From the IMG/VR virus record IMGVR_UViG_3300048591_000107, positions 1-46,110 of that record: a DNA stretch of 46,110 bases, one strand, 5' to 3'. The stretch is from a virus. How positions within the stretch are numbered: position 1 is the first letter of the stretch; every line of letters starts with the position of its first letter. The position numbers and the translations under genes are program-made. This document shows positions 14,569 to 46,110 of the stretch, one piece after another. A model generated the notes under the pieces. It had not been told where the DNA came from. It saw nothing but the letters and a program-made list of their open reading frames with translations, and ran no database searches.

Positions 14569-15134
14569 CCTACCGGGATATCCCCCTCGAGGTGATCCCG
14601 GAGCTACTGGAGATCGACCTCGCCAACGCCCGTTTCTGGTGGCGGGAGCGGTCGCGAGCGATGTTCCAGGACGACGGTGATTGGAAGACGTGGAACAAGC
14701 GCTTCGCTGGAATTGAAGCTGGTCTGTCGCGGAACCCCAGCGGCTACAGGCAGATAACCCTGCTTGGGCGATCGGTCCCCCTGCATCATCTCGTATGGGC
14801 TCTGGCGCATGGCGCGTGGGCGCCGCAGGGGATGCCTCTCGACCACATCGACGGCAACAAACTGAACAATAGGCCAAGCAACCTGCGCCTTGCCACACCC
14901 TCGCAGAATGCGCGCAATCGTTCGGCGCAGGCCCAGTCATCCTCGCGGTTCCTTGGCGTCTCGCGCCGCACCAAGAAGCGCCGCTCCCCGGTCTACGAAG
15001 CGGTGATCTGGGCGGACGGCGAGCAGGAGTACCTCGGCCAGTACCCATGCGAAAAGGAGGCGGCGCTCGCCTACAACATCGCCGCCGCGCGCCTCCACGG
15101 CGACTTCGCCAAGTTCAACGAGGTCTTCGCCTGA
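14565..15134 (+). CDS. HNH homing endonuclease with AP2 domain
   Basis: 189 residues. HNH part: LHHLVWALAHGAW, then LDHIDGNKLNNRPSNLRLATPSQNARN, the HNH_3 pattern. C-terminal AP2-like DNA-binding domain at about 125-189 (FLGVSRRTKK, YEAVIWADGEQEYLGQYPCEKEAALAYNIAA). It is a free-standing homing endonuclease gene inserted between the small KTLLG gene and the portal gene, fitted by ATGA and TGATG overlaps, so it does not break the late operon. Related in architecture to the HNH genes at 22052 and 43872. Confidence 0.93.
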   Translation: MTYRDIPLEVIPELLEIDLANARFWWRERSRAMFQDDGDWKTWNKRFAGIEAGLSRNPSGYRQITLLGRSVPLHHLVWALAHGAWAPQGMPLDHIDGNKLNNRPSNLRLATPSQNARNRSAQAQSSSRFLGVSRRTKKRRSPVYEAVIWADGEQEYLGQYPCEKEAALAYNIAAARLHGDFAKFNEVFA

Positions 15135-16789
15135 TGGTCAGCGACGAGAAACTCCGCAAGGCCCTCGCCGCGCGCCGCGCCCGCATGGACGAGGACTACT
15201 GGCGATGGGAGCCCTACTTCGAGGAGCTCCGCGACAACATCCAGCCGCAGGCCGGGCGCTTCACCGACGACGAGCGCCGCACCTCGTCCGTCTACCTCAA
15301 GCGCATCGTCGACCATAAGGGCCGCAAGGCGCTCAACACGCTCGTCTCGGGCCTGTCCGCAGGCATGACCTCGCCCGCCCGCCCGTGGTTCCGCCTCGGC
15401 CTCTACGACAGCGACCTCGAGCAGGCCAAGCCCGTGGCCGAGTGGCTCTACGAGGCGCAGAAGCGCATGTACGAGGTGCTGCGCGGCTCGAACATCTACC
15501 GCACGCTCGAATCCTGCTACCGGCAGATCGGGTGCTTCGGCACCTTCGGCGGCGTCATCGTCCCGCATTTCGAGAACGTGATTCACGGCTTCGCCTTCCC
15601 GATCGGCACCTACCGGATCGCCGAGGACGAGGACGGCGACATCGGATACCTGCACCGCGACTGCCGCATGACCGTCGGGTCGATGGTGGCGAAGTTTGGC
15701 TACGACAAGTGCTCCTCGGCCGTGCGGCGCATGTTCGACCGCGGCGACCATCACGCCTACGTCAAGGTGAAGCACGCGATCGAGCGGCGCCATGAGCGCG
15801 ACAGAGACTCGCCGCTCTCGCGCGACATGCCGTTCGCGTCGATGTACTGGGAGGAGGGCGAGCCCACATTCCTCGAGATCGGCGGCTTCTCCGCGCCCGT
15901 GCTTCTCGTTCCCCGTTGGGAGCAGACCGAGGGCGAGGCGTGGGCGACGAACAGCCCCGGCATGAACGCGCTCGGCGACGTGGTGCAGTTGCAGGGCCAG
16001 CATCGCGACAAGGCGATGGCGATCCAGAAGATGCACAACCCGCCGCTCGTGGGCGCGAACCCCGAGGCCGCGCGCTTCACCCGCAACGTCCCCGGCGGCG
16101 TGACGGTCGTGAACACCGCGGACCTCGCGAAGGGAGGCCTGCGCCCGATCTACGAGGTGAAGCCCGACATCCAGTGGCTCGCGCAGGACATCAACGAGAC
16201 GCGCCAGCGGATCAGCGAAGCGTTCTTCGAGGATCTCTTCCTCATGACCTCGCAGTCCGACCGCCGGCAGATCACGGCGCGCGAGATCGCGGAGCGGCAT
16301 GAGGAGAAGCTCCTTGTCCTCGGCCCGGTGCTGGAGAGCCTCGACCACGCGCTACTGTCCCCGCTGATCGAGGCGACCTTCGCGCACATGCAGAACGCGC
16401 GGCTCCTGCCGCCGCCGCCGCGCGAGATCCAGAACATGCAGATCAAGGTCGAGTATATCTCGGCGCTGGCGCAGGCGCAGAAGGCCGTGGGCGTCGCGCC
16501 GATCGAGCGCACCATCGGCTTCGCGGCGACGCTGGAGCAGATCCGGCCCGGCGCGATGGACAACATCGACACGGACGAGACGGTGCGCGAGTTCGCCGAG
16601 CAGGTCGGCGTGCCGCCGAAGATCATGCGCGACGCGGCGCAGGTGGCGAAGGACCGGCAGGCGCGGGCGCAGGCGCAGCAGCAGCAGATGCTCATGGAGA
16701 ACGCGCAAGGGCTCGCAGGCGCGGCGAACCTCATTTCCGAGGCCAGCGCGCGGGGCGTGGACGGGCTCCAGGCGTCGGGTCGCATATGA
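15134..16789 (+). CDS. Portal (head-tail connector) protein, T7 gp8-like
   Basis: 551 residues from ATG 15134 (TGATG overlap). T7-type head-tail connector: characteristic stretches include GRKALNTLVSGLSAGMTSPARPWFRL near the N-terminus, a conserved CFGTFGGVIVP, GDVVQLQGQHRDKAMAIQKMHNPPL and EAFFEDLFLMTSQSDRRQITAREIAERHEEKLLVLGPVLE. The C-terminus is Gln/Ala-rich. Twelve copies would form the channel for DNA packaging and ejection and the platform for the short tail. It is followed directly by Bbp19-like and scaffold genes. Confidence 0.95.
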   Translation: MVSDEKLRKALAARRARMDEDYWRWEPYFEELRDNIQPQAGRFTDDERRTSSVYLKRIVDHKGRKALNTLVSGLSAGMTSPARPWFRLGLYDSDLEQAKPVAEWLYEAQKRMYEVLRGSNIYRTLESCYRQIGCFGTFGGVIVPHFENVIHGFAFPIGTYRIAEDEDGDIGYLHRDCRMTVGSMVAKFGYDKCSSAVRRMFDRGDHHAYVKVKHAIERRHERDRDSPLSRDMPFASMYWEEGEPTFLEIGGFSAPVLLVPRWEQTEGEAWATNSPGMNALGDVVQLQGQHRDKAMAIQKMHNPPLVGANPEAARFTRNVPGGVTVVNTADLAKGGLRPIYEVKPDIQWLAQDINETRQRISEAFFEDLFLMTSQSDRRQITAREIAERHEEKLLVLGPVLESLDHALLSPLIEATFAHMQNARLLPPPPREIQNMQIKVEYISALAQAQKAVGVAPIERTIGFAATLEQIRPGAMDNIDTDETVREFAEQVGVPPKIMRDAAQVAKDRQARAQAQQQQMLMENAQGLAGAANLISEASARGVDGLQASGRI

Positions 16790-42015: not shown

Positions 42016-42392
42016 ACGGGCCACGCATCACCAACGACGACCGGGGGCTGACGATCAACAAGACGCTAGCCTATGCCAGCCTCGTGGTCGCCGTGCTGAG
42101 CGTCATGAGCACAGCCTTTTTCGTGGTCCGTGGCTACCTGCACATGGACGCAAACATCGCGGCGCTGCGGGGGAGCCTCGCCGAGCAGTCGGCCAACCTG
42201 AGCGCGATGATTGCCAACCGTGACGCCTACCGCGCGGCGACTGACACGCGGCTGCGCTCGCTCGAGGAAGACCGCCGCGGCAGCGCCACTGAACTCGTCG
42301 CGCTGCGCCGTGACCTCGGAGACCTCAAGGCCGAGATCCGCGCCTTGAACGCGACGATCCTGCAAGCCCTGCGCAATGGAGGCAACCCATGA
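42012..42392 (+). CDS. Membrane protein with coiled coil, lysis-region (126 aa)
   Basis: 126 residues: one transmembrane segment at about 18-41 (TLAYASLVVAVLSVMSTAFFVV) followed by a long coiled coil (IAALRGSLAEQSANLSAMI, RLRSLEEDRRGSATELVALRRDLGDLKAEIRALNATI). The N-in, C-out single-pass coiled-coil layout resembles inner-membrane spanin subunits or holin-associated proteins. It heads the lysis cluster and overlaps both neighbours as ATGA. Confidence 0.65.
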   Translation: MNGPRITNDDRGLTINKTLAYASLVVAVLSVMSTAFFVVRGYLHMDANIAALRGSLAEQSANLSAMIANRDAYRAATDTRLRSLEEDRRGSATELVALRRDLGDLKAEIRALNATILQALRNGGNP

Positions 42393-42589
42393 CTGAACTC
42401 GTTCCCGTGCTCGCCCGGATCGGCCTGCGGTATCTCGCGGGCGCACTCGTCACTTACGGCATCCTTGCCCCGGAGGACGCGGTGTTCATCACGACCGATC
42501 CCGAGATCGTCATGCTCGCAGGGCTCGCGCTAGGGGCGGTGGTCGAGGGGGCCTACGCCTGGGCGCGGCGGCATGGAGGCGCGACGTGA
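42389..42589 (+). CDS. Putative holin, small two-helix type (66 aa)
   Basis: 66 residues with two hydrophobic segments (about 10-26, IGLRYLAGALVTYGIL; about 38-58, PEIVMLAGLALGAVVEGAYAW) and a basic end ARRHG. Size, topology and position right before the endolysin match small phage holins of the type seen in alphaproteobacterial phages. The endolysin start overlaps its stop (GTGA). Confidence 0.68.
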   Translation: MTELVPVLARIGLRYLAGALVTYGILAPEDAVFITTDPEIVMLAGLALGAVVEGAYAWARRHGGAT

Positions 42590-43182: not shown

Positions 43183-43532
43183 CCCGCATCCTCGCATGGA
43201 TGCTCCCCGTCTGCCTTGGGATCGGCGCGGCGGTCCTCTACCTAACGCCGTCATGGGGGCAGTCAACGCACCAGGCGATCCCGACCGGCCCGGAGATCGG
43301 CCGCATCGTCATCGTCAACCTTGAGCAGGCCGACGACTACAACCGCTCCGAACACGTCTTCGGCGATGTGAAGGTCACGGTCCACTACACCTCGACGCCG
43401 AATTGGGGCCGAGATCCGAGGGACCGGGTGATGGTCACGGTTCCAGAGGGCTACGTCGCTATCCCGTCGGAGATCGTGCTGCCCGAAAACGAGACGATCG
43501 AGGTGGCGATCTACGAGGCGATCATCGGATGA
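43179..43532 (+). CDS. Exported small protein in lysis cluster (117 aa)
   Basis: 117 residues from ATG 43179 (ATGA overlap). Residues 1-28 form a signal peptide or N-anchor (TRILAWMLPVCLGIGAAVLYLTPSWGQ, with a cleavage-like A/G-Q region). The rest is beta-like (IGRIVIVNLEQADDYN, DVKVTVHYTSTPNWGRDP, VMVTVPEGYVAIPSEIVLPENETIEVAIYEAIIG). No lipobox, so not a clear outer spanin. Function unknown; periplasmic location inferred. Confidence 0.65.
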   Translation: MTRILAWMLPVCLGIGAAVLYLTPSWGQSTHQAIPTGPEIGRIVIVNLEQADDYNRSEHVFGDVKVTVHYTSTPNWGRDPRDRVMVTVPEGYVAIPSEIVLPENETIEVAIYEAIIG

Positions 43533-43891
43533 TTGGCGCGATCCTCTCCTTCCTCACCGGCGGCCTCCTCGATCGCGTCTTGTCCACCGTGGACAAGCGG
43601 ATCGCCGCGGAGACGGATCGGGAGAAGATCAAGGCGGACCTCATCCGCGAGCACTACCGGACCCGCGCTGACTTCATGCGCTCGGGTGGCTTCTGGCTCA
43701 TGCTGATCTTCGCCGTGCCCCTCGCATTCTGGTGGGCGGCAGTCCTGATCTACAGTGTCCTTTGGTGTGCAGGCTGCGCGTATCCGCAAGGGTGGACGAT
43801 CGCAGCCCTAGCACCCCCACTAGATCAGTGGGCCGGGGCGATCATAGTCTCCATTTTCGGCGTGATCGGGCTCAATCGCTTCTCGAAGTAG
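43529..43891 (+). CDS. GTA-type 3-TM holin-like membrane protein, 3' end next to an HNH insertion
   Basis: 120 residues from ATG 43529 (ATGA overlap). N-terminal amphipathic part (ILSFLTGGLLDRVLSTVDKRIAAETDREKIKADLIREHYRTRADFMRS) followed by hydrophobic segments (GGFWLMLIFAVPLAFWWAAVLIYSVLW and AGAIIVSIFGVIGL), like the 3-TM holins of gene transfer agents. Its last 23 codons (43823-43891, DQWAGAIIVSIFGVIGLNRFSK) have a diverged second copy at 44466-44534, beyond the HNH gene, which suggests that the HNH insertion supplied or replaced the 3' end. It ends 20 bp inside the convergent HNH gene. Confidence 0.75.
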   Translation: MIGAILSFLTGGLLDRVLSTVDKRIAAETDREKIKADLIREHYRTRADFMRSGGFWLMLIFAVPLAFWWAAVLIYSVLWCAGCAYPQGWTIAALAPPLDQWAGAIIVSIFGVIGLNRFSK

Positions 43892-44438
43892 TCCCGTGGC
43901 GATCAGAGAAGCCAAGGGACCGCTCTAGCTCAGATCGGTAAGCAAGAGCGTCCTCGCGGGCCTTGAAGTTTCGACGGAGCCTTCGGCCATCGCTCTGGAC
44001 CTGAACCACCCATGCCGCGTCTCTCTCGCACCATGAGACGCCCGTTTTCCCAGAGGTGTTATCCGCCCGACGCTTTGCGTTCCGCTGGTTCTCGGCCTTC
44101 GTTACTACGCGAAGATTTGCGATGCGATTGTCAGACCTGTTTCCATTTAAGTGGTCGACTTCGCCCGCCGGGATCTCCCCATAGAAGATGGCCCAAGCCA
44201 CTCTATGAGCCTTGAATGTGCGACCGAGTAACTTCCCCGCCAAGTAGCCTGTGCCGTGATCCGAAGCAAAAGCTGGCCTGCCGGCAAACTGCGAGTTCCA
44301 TGTGTTCTTACGGTATTCGCGGCTACGCGCGGGGCTCTCACCGAACATCTCCGGCCATGCTTCGCGGAACGTCAACGCCCCGGTTTCCGGGTCGTAGTCA
44401 ACCAGTCTGCGCAAGAGATGAATGTCCATGCCGAACAC
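43872..44438 (-). CDS. HNH homing endonuclease with AP2 domain at the holin 3' end
   Basis: 188 residues (ATG 44438; ATG 44429 also possible). Same layout as the HNH at 22052: RLVDYDPETGALTFREAWPEMF, then AHRVAWAIFYGEIPAGEVDHLNGNRSDNRIANLRVVTKAENQRN, then an AP2 domain TGVSWCERDAAWVVQVQSDGRRLRRNFKAREDALAYR. Its base composition is clearly less GC-rich than the neighbouring genes, as expected for a mobile gene. The gene is bracketed by two versions of the 69-bp holin 3' end. Confidence 0.93.
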   Translation of the reverse strand: MFGMDIHLLRRLVDYDPETGALTFREAWPEMFGESPARSREYRKNTWNSQFAGRPAFASDHGTGYLAGKLLGRTFKAHRVAWAIFYGEIPAGEVDHLNGNRSDNRIANLRVVTKAENQRNAKRRADNTSGKTGVSWCERDAAWVVQVQSDGRRLRRNFKAREDALAYRSELERSLGFSDRHGTTSRSD

Positions 44439-44465
44439 TAACCTGCCCGCGCCACAACCGCAACG

Positions 44466-44534
44466 GATGAGTGGGCCGGCATCATAATCGTAAGCATCTT
44501 CGGCGTGCTAGGGGTCGATCGGCTGCGGCGCTGA
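44466..44534 (+). pseudogene. Displaced 3' end of the holin gene
   Basis: Frame GAT 44466 to TGA 44534 reads DEWAGIIIVSIFGVLGVDRLRR, matching the last 22 residues of the holin at 43823-43891 at about two thirds of positions, and the frame has no start of its own. It is best read as the original holin 3' end, cut off when the HNH gene inserted. The rest of 44535-44734 holds no gene that I can support, only one TTCTGAACAGAA palindrome and one TGTTCAG motif. Confidence 0.7.
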
Positions 44535-44589: not shown

Positions 44590-44601
44590 TTCTGAACAGA
44601 A
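44590..44601. repeat. TTCTGAACAGAA palindrome, copy 1
   Basis: 12-bp inverted repeat (TTCTG-AA-CAGAA), identical to 45525-45536. Part of a cluster of TGTTCAG motifs around the integrase 3' end and following HNH gene; possible integrase arm or excisionase binding site. Confidence 0.4.
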
Positions 44602-44734: not shown

Positions 44735-45322
44735 CTACGGCTCGCGCTTCTGACGGCTGTAGCCCAAGAGCCCGCATTGCAGGGTGATCTCGGCGCACAT
44801 TCGGAAGAACGCATCATCGGTGAAGTCGCTTCGCGCGGTGTTGACGATGGTCGCCACCAGCCGCGTGTTCGCTCGCGAGTAGTCCTTGCCGGCTTCAATC
44901 CTGTCGATACTTGGGGAGAAGGGTCGGCGGCTGCCGACATCCGACTTGTAGAACTCGAAGGGAATCCGAGACAAAGCGCAGCGGAAGTCCTGGTCTGACA
45001 GCATTCCCATGACGTCATCGAAGGTGAGCGAGAACTCGACCGATTGGCGCTGCGCCCTTTCCTTGGCGCGCAACAACGAACGTCGCACATCGGCGGCGGC
45101 TTCCTCCTCGGCAAGGCTGCTCCACGGTTCGGGCGGCGCTCCTGCCCGGATCGCGTGGACCTCCGCAGCGAACGCGTCGCTTCCGACCCTCGAGCGCAGC
45201 CGATACAGCCGATCGCCGGACGCGCAGAAATACTGCCCGCGATCATCGCCCACGAGGCCACGGACCACGCCGGGGATTCGGGTTGGACCGTAGTCAGCCC
45301 GAGAGAACGACCGTCGAGGCAT
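44735..45322 (-). CDS. HNH-type endonuclease downstream of integrase
   Basis: 195 residues from ATG 45322 (GGAG 9 nt upstream). C-terminal HNH-like fold of a phage type: FRCALSRIPFEFYKSDVGSRRPFSPSIDRIEAGKDYSRANTRLVATIVNTARSD, with SIDRI in place of the usual DHI and the N-rich helix NTARSDF. N-terminal part (YGPTRIPGVVRGLVGDDRGQYFCASGDRLYRL) resembles AP2-like DNA-binding strands. Base composition is lower in GC than neighbours. Lies between the integrase and the HNH at 43872, likely another mobile nuclease gene. 45323-45511 holds no gene. Confidence 0.8.
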   Translation of the reverse strand: MPRRSFSRADYGPTRIPGVVRGLVGDDRGQYFCASGDRLYRLRSRVGSDAFAAEVHAIRAGAPPEPWSSLAEEEAAADVRRSLLRAKERAQRQSVEFSLTFDDVMGMLSDQDFRCALSRIPFEFYKSDVGSRRPFSPSIDRIEAGKDYSRANTRLVATIVNTARSDFTDDAFFRMCAEITLQCGLLGYSRQKREP

Positions 45323-45516: not shown

Positions 45517-46110
45517 AGCGAATTTTCTGAACAGAATTGCGTTCCGGGTTCGTGCCGCCGAGGATGCGTTTCCGCTCCGCCGCGCGGCTGTAGTGCTCGA
45601 TCTCGTCGAGACTCACGTGGCCCAACCAGGCGCCGATCTGGTGCGTCGTGCCGCCACGCTCGGCGATCTCGATCGCCCGCGCGACCCGCAGCCCGTGCGC
45701 CGTCTTCCCCTCGATTCCCGCCTTCCGCGCCGACGCGGCAAACCACTGGCTCGCGGCCTTCTCCGATCGCGAGTGGCCCTGCGCGGTGACGAGGAAGGTG
45801 AGGTGCCGGTCTGGCATCGCTTCGATGGCGGCGTGCAGGTGCGCGAGGTCTGCCGGGTCGGCGATCGCCGGCACCTGGCGGCGGAACGGCACGGCGACCT
45901 CGCCGCCGGTCTTCCGCTGCCGGTAGCAGGCCCAGCCGTCGCGGTCGACGTTTCCCTCGCCAAGGCGCACGGCGTCGTTCACACGGGCCCCGAACCAGTT
46001 GAAGATCTCGAACGCCAGCCGCTCGCGTGTGCCGACCGGCCAGAAGGCGCGGAAGCGCGCCTTGTCGTCGGGCGTCCATGGGGCGTGCTGCACGGACTTC
46101 GGCGCGGGCG
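45512..46110 (-). CDS. int: Tyrosine recombinase (integrase), C-terminal catalytic part, runs off the right edge
   Basis: Continuation of the integrase that starts at 593. All catalytic residues are present: Arg198 (GARVNDAV), Lys222 (RQRKTGG), His294-x-x-Arg297 (HGLR), His320 (LGH) and nucleophile Tyr329 (EHYSR), numbered on the joined 354-aa protein. The enzyme should be active. The last codons overlap the repeated TTCTGAACAGAA and TTTTGTTCAGG strings, so the att-region signals reach into the gene end. Confidence 0.95.
   Translation of the reverse strand, partial: PAPKSVQHAPWTPDDKARFRAFWPVGTRERLAFEIFNWFGARVNDAVRLGEGNVDRDGWACYRQRKTGGEVAVPFRRQVPAIADPADLAHLHAAIEAMPDRHLTFLVTAQGHSRSEKAASQWFAASARKAGIEGKTAHGLRVARAIEIAERGGTTHQIGAWLGHVSLDEIEHYSRAAERKRILGGTNPERNSVQKIRS
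45525..45536. repeat. TTCTGAACAGAA palindrome, copy 2
   Basis: Second identical 12-bp inverted repeat, within the last codons of the integrase. Copies 1 and 2 lie 935 bp apart and flank the HNH gene at 44735-45322. Confidence 0.4.
45984..46110. repeat. 127-bp direct terminal repeat (right copy)
   Basis: Identical to bases 1-127; see the left copy. It falls inside the integrase gene. Confidence 0.9.

Follow-up and report, generated by a model that had tools for sequence, protein, structure and literature searches.

An HNH Gene between Two Divergent 3′ Ends of a Putative Phage Holin Gene: Possible Displacement of a Resident Gene End by a Homing-Type Element

On the usual view, a free-standing homing gene needs a place where it does no harm: between genes, or within an intron or an intein. 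Other elements enter coding sequence and repair it. When e14 or phage 21 inserts in icd, the insertion rebuilds the 3′ end of the target and the old end is displaced; the integrase is encoded inside the element. In fungal mitochondrial DNA, mobile endonuclease ORFs come with a C-terminus of foreign origin, which displaces the native one, as in atp6 of Allomyces and in atp6, atp9, cox2 and nad3 of Glomus (PMC3630166). The two ends at Glomus atp6 are 63.5% identical (PMC3630166). For the free-standing endonucleases of phage T4, the cited part of PMC2988022 reports co-conversion of flanking DNA on homing and overlaps of 11–24 bp with neighbouring genes.

Here we describe a phage locus at which an HNH gene lies between two versions of the 3′ end of a holin-like gene. 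The window, i.e., the whole stretch of DNA analysed (46,110 nucleotides), covers a complete phage genome: an exact direct repeat of 127 bp lies at its termini (1–127 = 45984–46110), giving a genome size of 45,983 bp, and a contig of this phage bridges the terminal-repeat junction. An 8.9-kb contig of this phage, IMGVR_UViG_3300048592_000416, has the identical locus arrangement (99.98% over 4158 bp). This supports the assembly and argues against a misassembly confined to one record; the second contig represents the same event, not an independent one. The portal gene (15047–16789) has a product about 40% identical to those of Bordetella phage BPP-1 and related podoviruses; the holin-like gene, by contrast, is similar to genes from rhodobacterial and rhizobial phages. 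The reading that we prefer, at a probability of roughly 0.55, is that the resident holin 3′ end was displaced by a foreign, in-frame one that came attached to a free-standing gene of the HNH homing type. The features of the locus are as follows.

43529–43891, plus strand: holin-like membrane protein gene, 120 aa, phrog_12264; it has a complete in-frame proximal 3′ end and keeps all invariant family residues.
43823–43891, plus strand: copy 1, the proximal holin 3′ end, read as part of the holin; its nearest tail is in the HNH-less contigs L093/L094 (54/69 nt).
43823–43836, plus strand: conserved 14-bp core GATCAGTGGGCCGG, codons D-Q-W-A-G, with the near-identical GATGAGTGGGCCGG at 44466–44479.
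43872–44429, minus strand: free-standing HNH_3 endonuclease gene, 185 aa, with HNH_3 and phrog_99 matches and a 20-bp antisense overlap with the holin end.
44439–44465, no strand assigned: junction segment from the HNH start to copy 2, with possible decayed holin bases, CTGCCCGCGCC (LPAP codons).
44466–44534, plus strand: copy 2, the distal holin 3′ end, lacking a start codon and untranslated unless joined; 82.9% identical over 70 bp to a Sediminimonas prophage.

The 43529 gene product matches phrog_12264 over its full length (E 1.1e-27, residues 1–114), a family of unknown function, and matches no Pfam family. A GH108 endolysin gene lies one gene upstream. The product is therefore called a putative holin, a name resting on the phrog_12264 match and the endolysin neighbourhood. 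Upstream of the endolysin gene, 42389–42586 encodes a 66-aa protein with a weak match to Pfam Phage_holin_10 (E 8e-4, below the cut-off); the holin proper may be encoded here, with the 43529 gene as its partner. Copy 1 encodes DQWAGAIIVSIFGVIGLNRFSK followed by the stop that terminates the 43529–43891 ORF, and it includes the last hydrophobic (membrane) segment of the protein. A preliminary description held that the holin had been kept functional, and the gene does read through to a full end; the function itself is putative.

Copies 1 and 2 are identical at 44 of 69 nucleotides (65%), in the same frame, and each ends in a stop. That such a pair brackets an antisense HNH gene, with the 20-bp overlap, was already noted in the preliminary description, whose coordinates, frame and stops are correct. 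Copy 2 stands out clearly. A scan with the holin-end 69-mer gave 44 identities at copy 2 and 33 at the next place on that strand of the window, and a six-frame scan of the window with the holin-end peptide gave BLOSUM scores of 80 for copy 2 and 21 for the runner-up. The 14-bp core has no further copies in the window in either of its two forms. Copy 2 encodes DEWAGIIIVSIFGVLGVDRLRR followed by a stop, in a holin frame that opens at the stop codon 44439–44441 and holds no start codon. Joining 43529–43822 to 44466–44534 yields an uninterrupted gene of 363 bp and 120 codons. A stranded old end makes the event testable, since the joined flanks predict the likely ancestral allele.

The HNH ORF most likely starts at ATG 44429, with the longest version starting from GTG 44438, and stops at 43872. 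Its product matches Pfam HNH_3 PF13392 (E 5.9e-21) and phrog_99 (E 3.5e-49), and an eleven-member family alignment shows the catalytic DH..N..N positions intact. The gene is thus classed as encoding a homing-type endonuclease, HNH_3 or I-HmuI-like, and both cleavage and self-spread are predicted activities. Its final residues and stop codon are encoded by the complement of the holin end, making a tight junction. GC3 is 0.65 in the HNH gene and 0.79–0.94 in major phage genes; the lower value fits a recent arrival. A second HNH_3 gene in this phage (22052–22615, minus strand), about 45% identical to the first, lies between tail genes and has no flank duplication around it.

The HNH gene is the only gene recognised in the 643-bp segment between the copies, where no integrase or recombinase ORF is found. 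This bears on the idea that an intron lies here, or else a switchable cassette giving two alternative ends. The shared 14-bp core would indeed let recombination remove the HNH gene and swap the holin end. Yet copy 1 is already complete with its stop, the HNH gene is antisense, no recombinase is encoded in the segment, and an Rfam search of both strands of the intervening DNA came back empty at E<=1, in line with the earlier expectation that no splicing joins the parts. We regard both forms of this idea as highly improbable.

The origin of the ends was approached through about 40 holin relatives, identified by scanning viral contigs and bacterial genomes. Between different phages, the last segment of the holin has a mean identity of 66.2% (24 relatives), and copies 1 and 2 share 65%. 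Since this identity equals the between-phage mean and both copies are intact, they resemble alleles of two unrelated phages, not a recent local duplicate. Copy 2 is nearest to the holin end in an HNH-less prophage of Sediminimonas qiaohouensis (57/69 nt, 20/22 aa), the match ending exactly at the stop. The two differ by 9.5 synonymous and 2.5 nonsynonymous changes (p 7e-5). Nearly all of the changes are silent, so the differences arose mostly under coding constraint; translation of copy 2 probably ceased only recently. A tandem pair of homologous ends would also result from duplication of the holin end within this phage and later divergence. That course is already disfavoured, because the copies diverge as much as between phages and the untranslated one is nevertheless undamaged, with nearly only silent changes relative to its relative. 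We give it hardly any credence. High divergence combined with an undamaged untranslated copy points to a foreign origin of one copy.

Which copy is foreign is harder to say. The nearest relatives of copy 1, L093/L094, have a single holin end and no HNH gene (18/22 aa). Identity to the nearest relative is 83% for copy 2 and 78% for copy 1, and neither relative is close to the phage backbone. Some 33 HNH-less relatives have one copy of the holin end with no HNH gene adjoining, and a second copy was found in none of them. A degenerate scan for the holin-end segment found two matches in just 1 of 30 contigs, which is of the same phage. The preliminary description expected HNH-less relatives to end like copy 2. 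The Sediminimonas prophage does so, but L093/L094 end like copy 1. Since HNH-less phages resemble either end, either copy may have been the resident one. The earlier claim that the HNH gene arrived with a replacement end from another phage thus stands as far as the ends come from different lineages; copy 2 as the resident end, and HNH cleavage as the cause, are proposals.

With copy 1 as the resident end, the polarity would be reversed: the HNH gene would have come in with copy 2, or with part of some other holin, on its far side. The L093/L094 ends are in keeping with this, as is the position of the bulk of the genome on the copy 1 side. Such a history demands a donor with the HNH gene inside its own holin, or an additional joining event; the far-side end would have no protective purpose, and the tight overlap of the HNH gene with copy 1 would be a coincidence. 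We consider it improbable.

Searches for the parent phages were made in several ways. Portal, EndoVII-like and HNH protein queries against viral contigs retrieved only the same phage at high identity, and no close HNH-less relative of the backbone was found. Neither viral contigs nor 394 genomes of the Sediminimonas genome's family yielded a donor phage, one carrying this HNH gene next to a simple holin; in those 394 genomes, the HNH protein has three matches, at 39–47% identity. A chimera test of the holin tail against the body was set aside, the 60–66 nt being too short. The holin body sides clearly with neither copy's lineage, so the left crossover is unplaced. Tail identities of at least 0.80 occur in 1.5% of comparable pairs of relatives, and a best match of 0.82–0.85 among some 30 is unremarkable.

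In every relative, similarity to copy 2 starts at 44465/44466 or later, i.e., at holin codon 99, before the invariant W-A-G codons. The segment 44439–44465 may retain a little degenerate holin sequence: its local alignment exceeds shuffles at 0.002–0.006 for two relatives (L037/L050) and not for the others, a weak, post hoc signal. To the right of copy 2 lies an EndoVII-like nuclease gene (44735–45322, minus strand; phrog_3322, phrog_1035), so that copy 2 is flanked by two nuclease genes. Free-standing homing enzymes of EndoVII type are known, as the cited part of PMC6083498 describes for F-CphI. Around the EndoVII-like and integrase genes, CTGAACAGAA / TTTTGTTCAG motifs are repeated near 44591, 45373, 45508 and 45528 (approximate positions); these are possible operator sites.

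The main competitor of our preferred reading is a passive mosaic junction, in which the holin and HNH genes come from one phage, the holin remnant and downstream genes come from another, and the HNH gene is a passenger. Phages are mosaic, nuclease genes are frequent at exchange boundaries according to the cited part of PMC10448857, similarity of the relatives to the window breaks off abruptly at 44465, and a second nuclease gene sits directly right of copy 2. A random junction, however, would hardly be expected to fall exactly at an HNH gene beside a homologue of its neighbour with a complete gene kept, and the composition of the HNH gene is foreign. We judge a passive junction unlikely but deserving of weight.

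Under the displacement reading, the following course is proposed. The HNH gene, physically linked to a foreign holin 3′ end, would have recombined into the holin of this phage, then of the other allelic type. The old gene would have been interrupted between codons 98 and 99, directly ahead of the invariant codons for W-A-G. With the new end, the holin would be complete in frame, last hydrophobic segment included, and so stay functional, and the old end would be stranded, untranslated, beyond the HNH gene. Most likely, the endonuclease promoted the transfer of its own gene and flank by copying from a co-infecting phage; the left exchange would be homologous, in the holin or upstream, and the right junction illegitimate. 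That the proximal end is the foreign one, that the HNH enzyme cleaves at this site, and that recombination took this route are all points that we infer.

The preliminary description further held that free-standing homing genes in general can spread harmlessly in this way, which goes too far. Among 100 HNH_3-family loci with both flanks, flank duplication is real in 2, both of them records of this phage's locus; none was seen at the about 98 others, which include the second HNH gene of the phage. Matches at other surveyed HNH loci are weak, and those inspected are low-complexity, out-of-frame chance similarity. By this sequence survey, flank duplication is rare, not a general habit of the HNH_3 family, and represents one event in one phage lineage. 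The open-access literature searched contains no phage case of an endonuclease gene with a replacement gene end. We put forward tentatively, at somewhat less than even odds, that this is the first bacteriophage homing endonuclease element carrying a replacement 3′ end, one that homes into a conserved coding site of an important phage gene, the invariant W-A-G codons, with neither intron nor intein. If so, an element with its own spare gene end opens conserved coding sites as phage targets, as in fungal mitochondria, and foreign gene ends move between phages as a by-product.

How does the locus compare with the systems introduced above? As in e14 and phage 21 at icd, the end of the target is, on the displacement reading, swapped for an element-borne version and the old one pushed away; unlike theirs, the 643-bp segment carries an HNH gene only and no integrase. 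Like the T4 free-standing endonucleases, the HNH gene overlaps its neighbour. Flank replacement in T4 is clean, and the cited part of PMC2988022 mentions no displaced second copy, whereas this phage would keep the old 3′ end. By sequence family, the enzyme belongs with the HNH_3 / I-HmuI-like proteins of phrog_99 and phrog_4578; the catalytic motif is intact, and the family includes the phage's second, also antisense, member. The closest resemblance is to the fungal mitochondrial insertions, with the same order of 5′ gene, in-frame C-terminus, endonuclease gene and displaced end. The two ends differ strongly in both (63.5% identity in Glomus atp6, 65% in the phage), and the fungal native end may be unexpressed. 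The differences are that the target is a phage gene, that the enzyme is of the HNH type instead of LAGLIDADG or GIY-YIG, and that the HNH gene is antisense with a 20-bp overlap with the inserted end, whereas the fungal endonuclease ORF lies on the target strand, often in phase. Two fungal-type features are present in the phage: the target is completed in frame by the end adjoining the endonuclease gene, and a second, putatively native end lies beyond that gene at 44466–44534.
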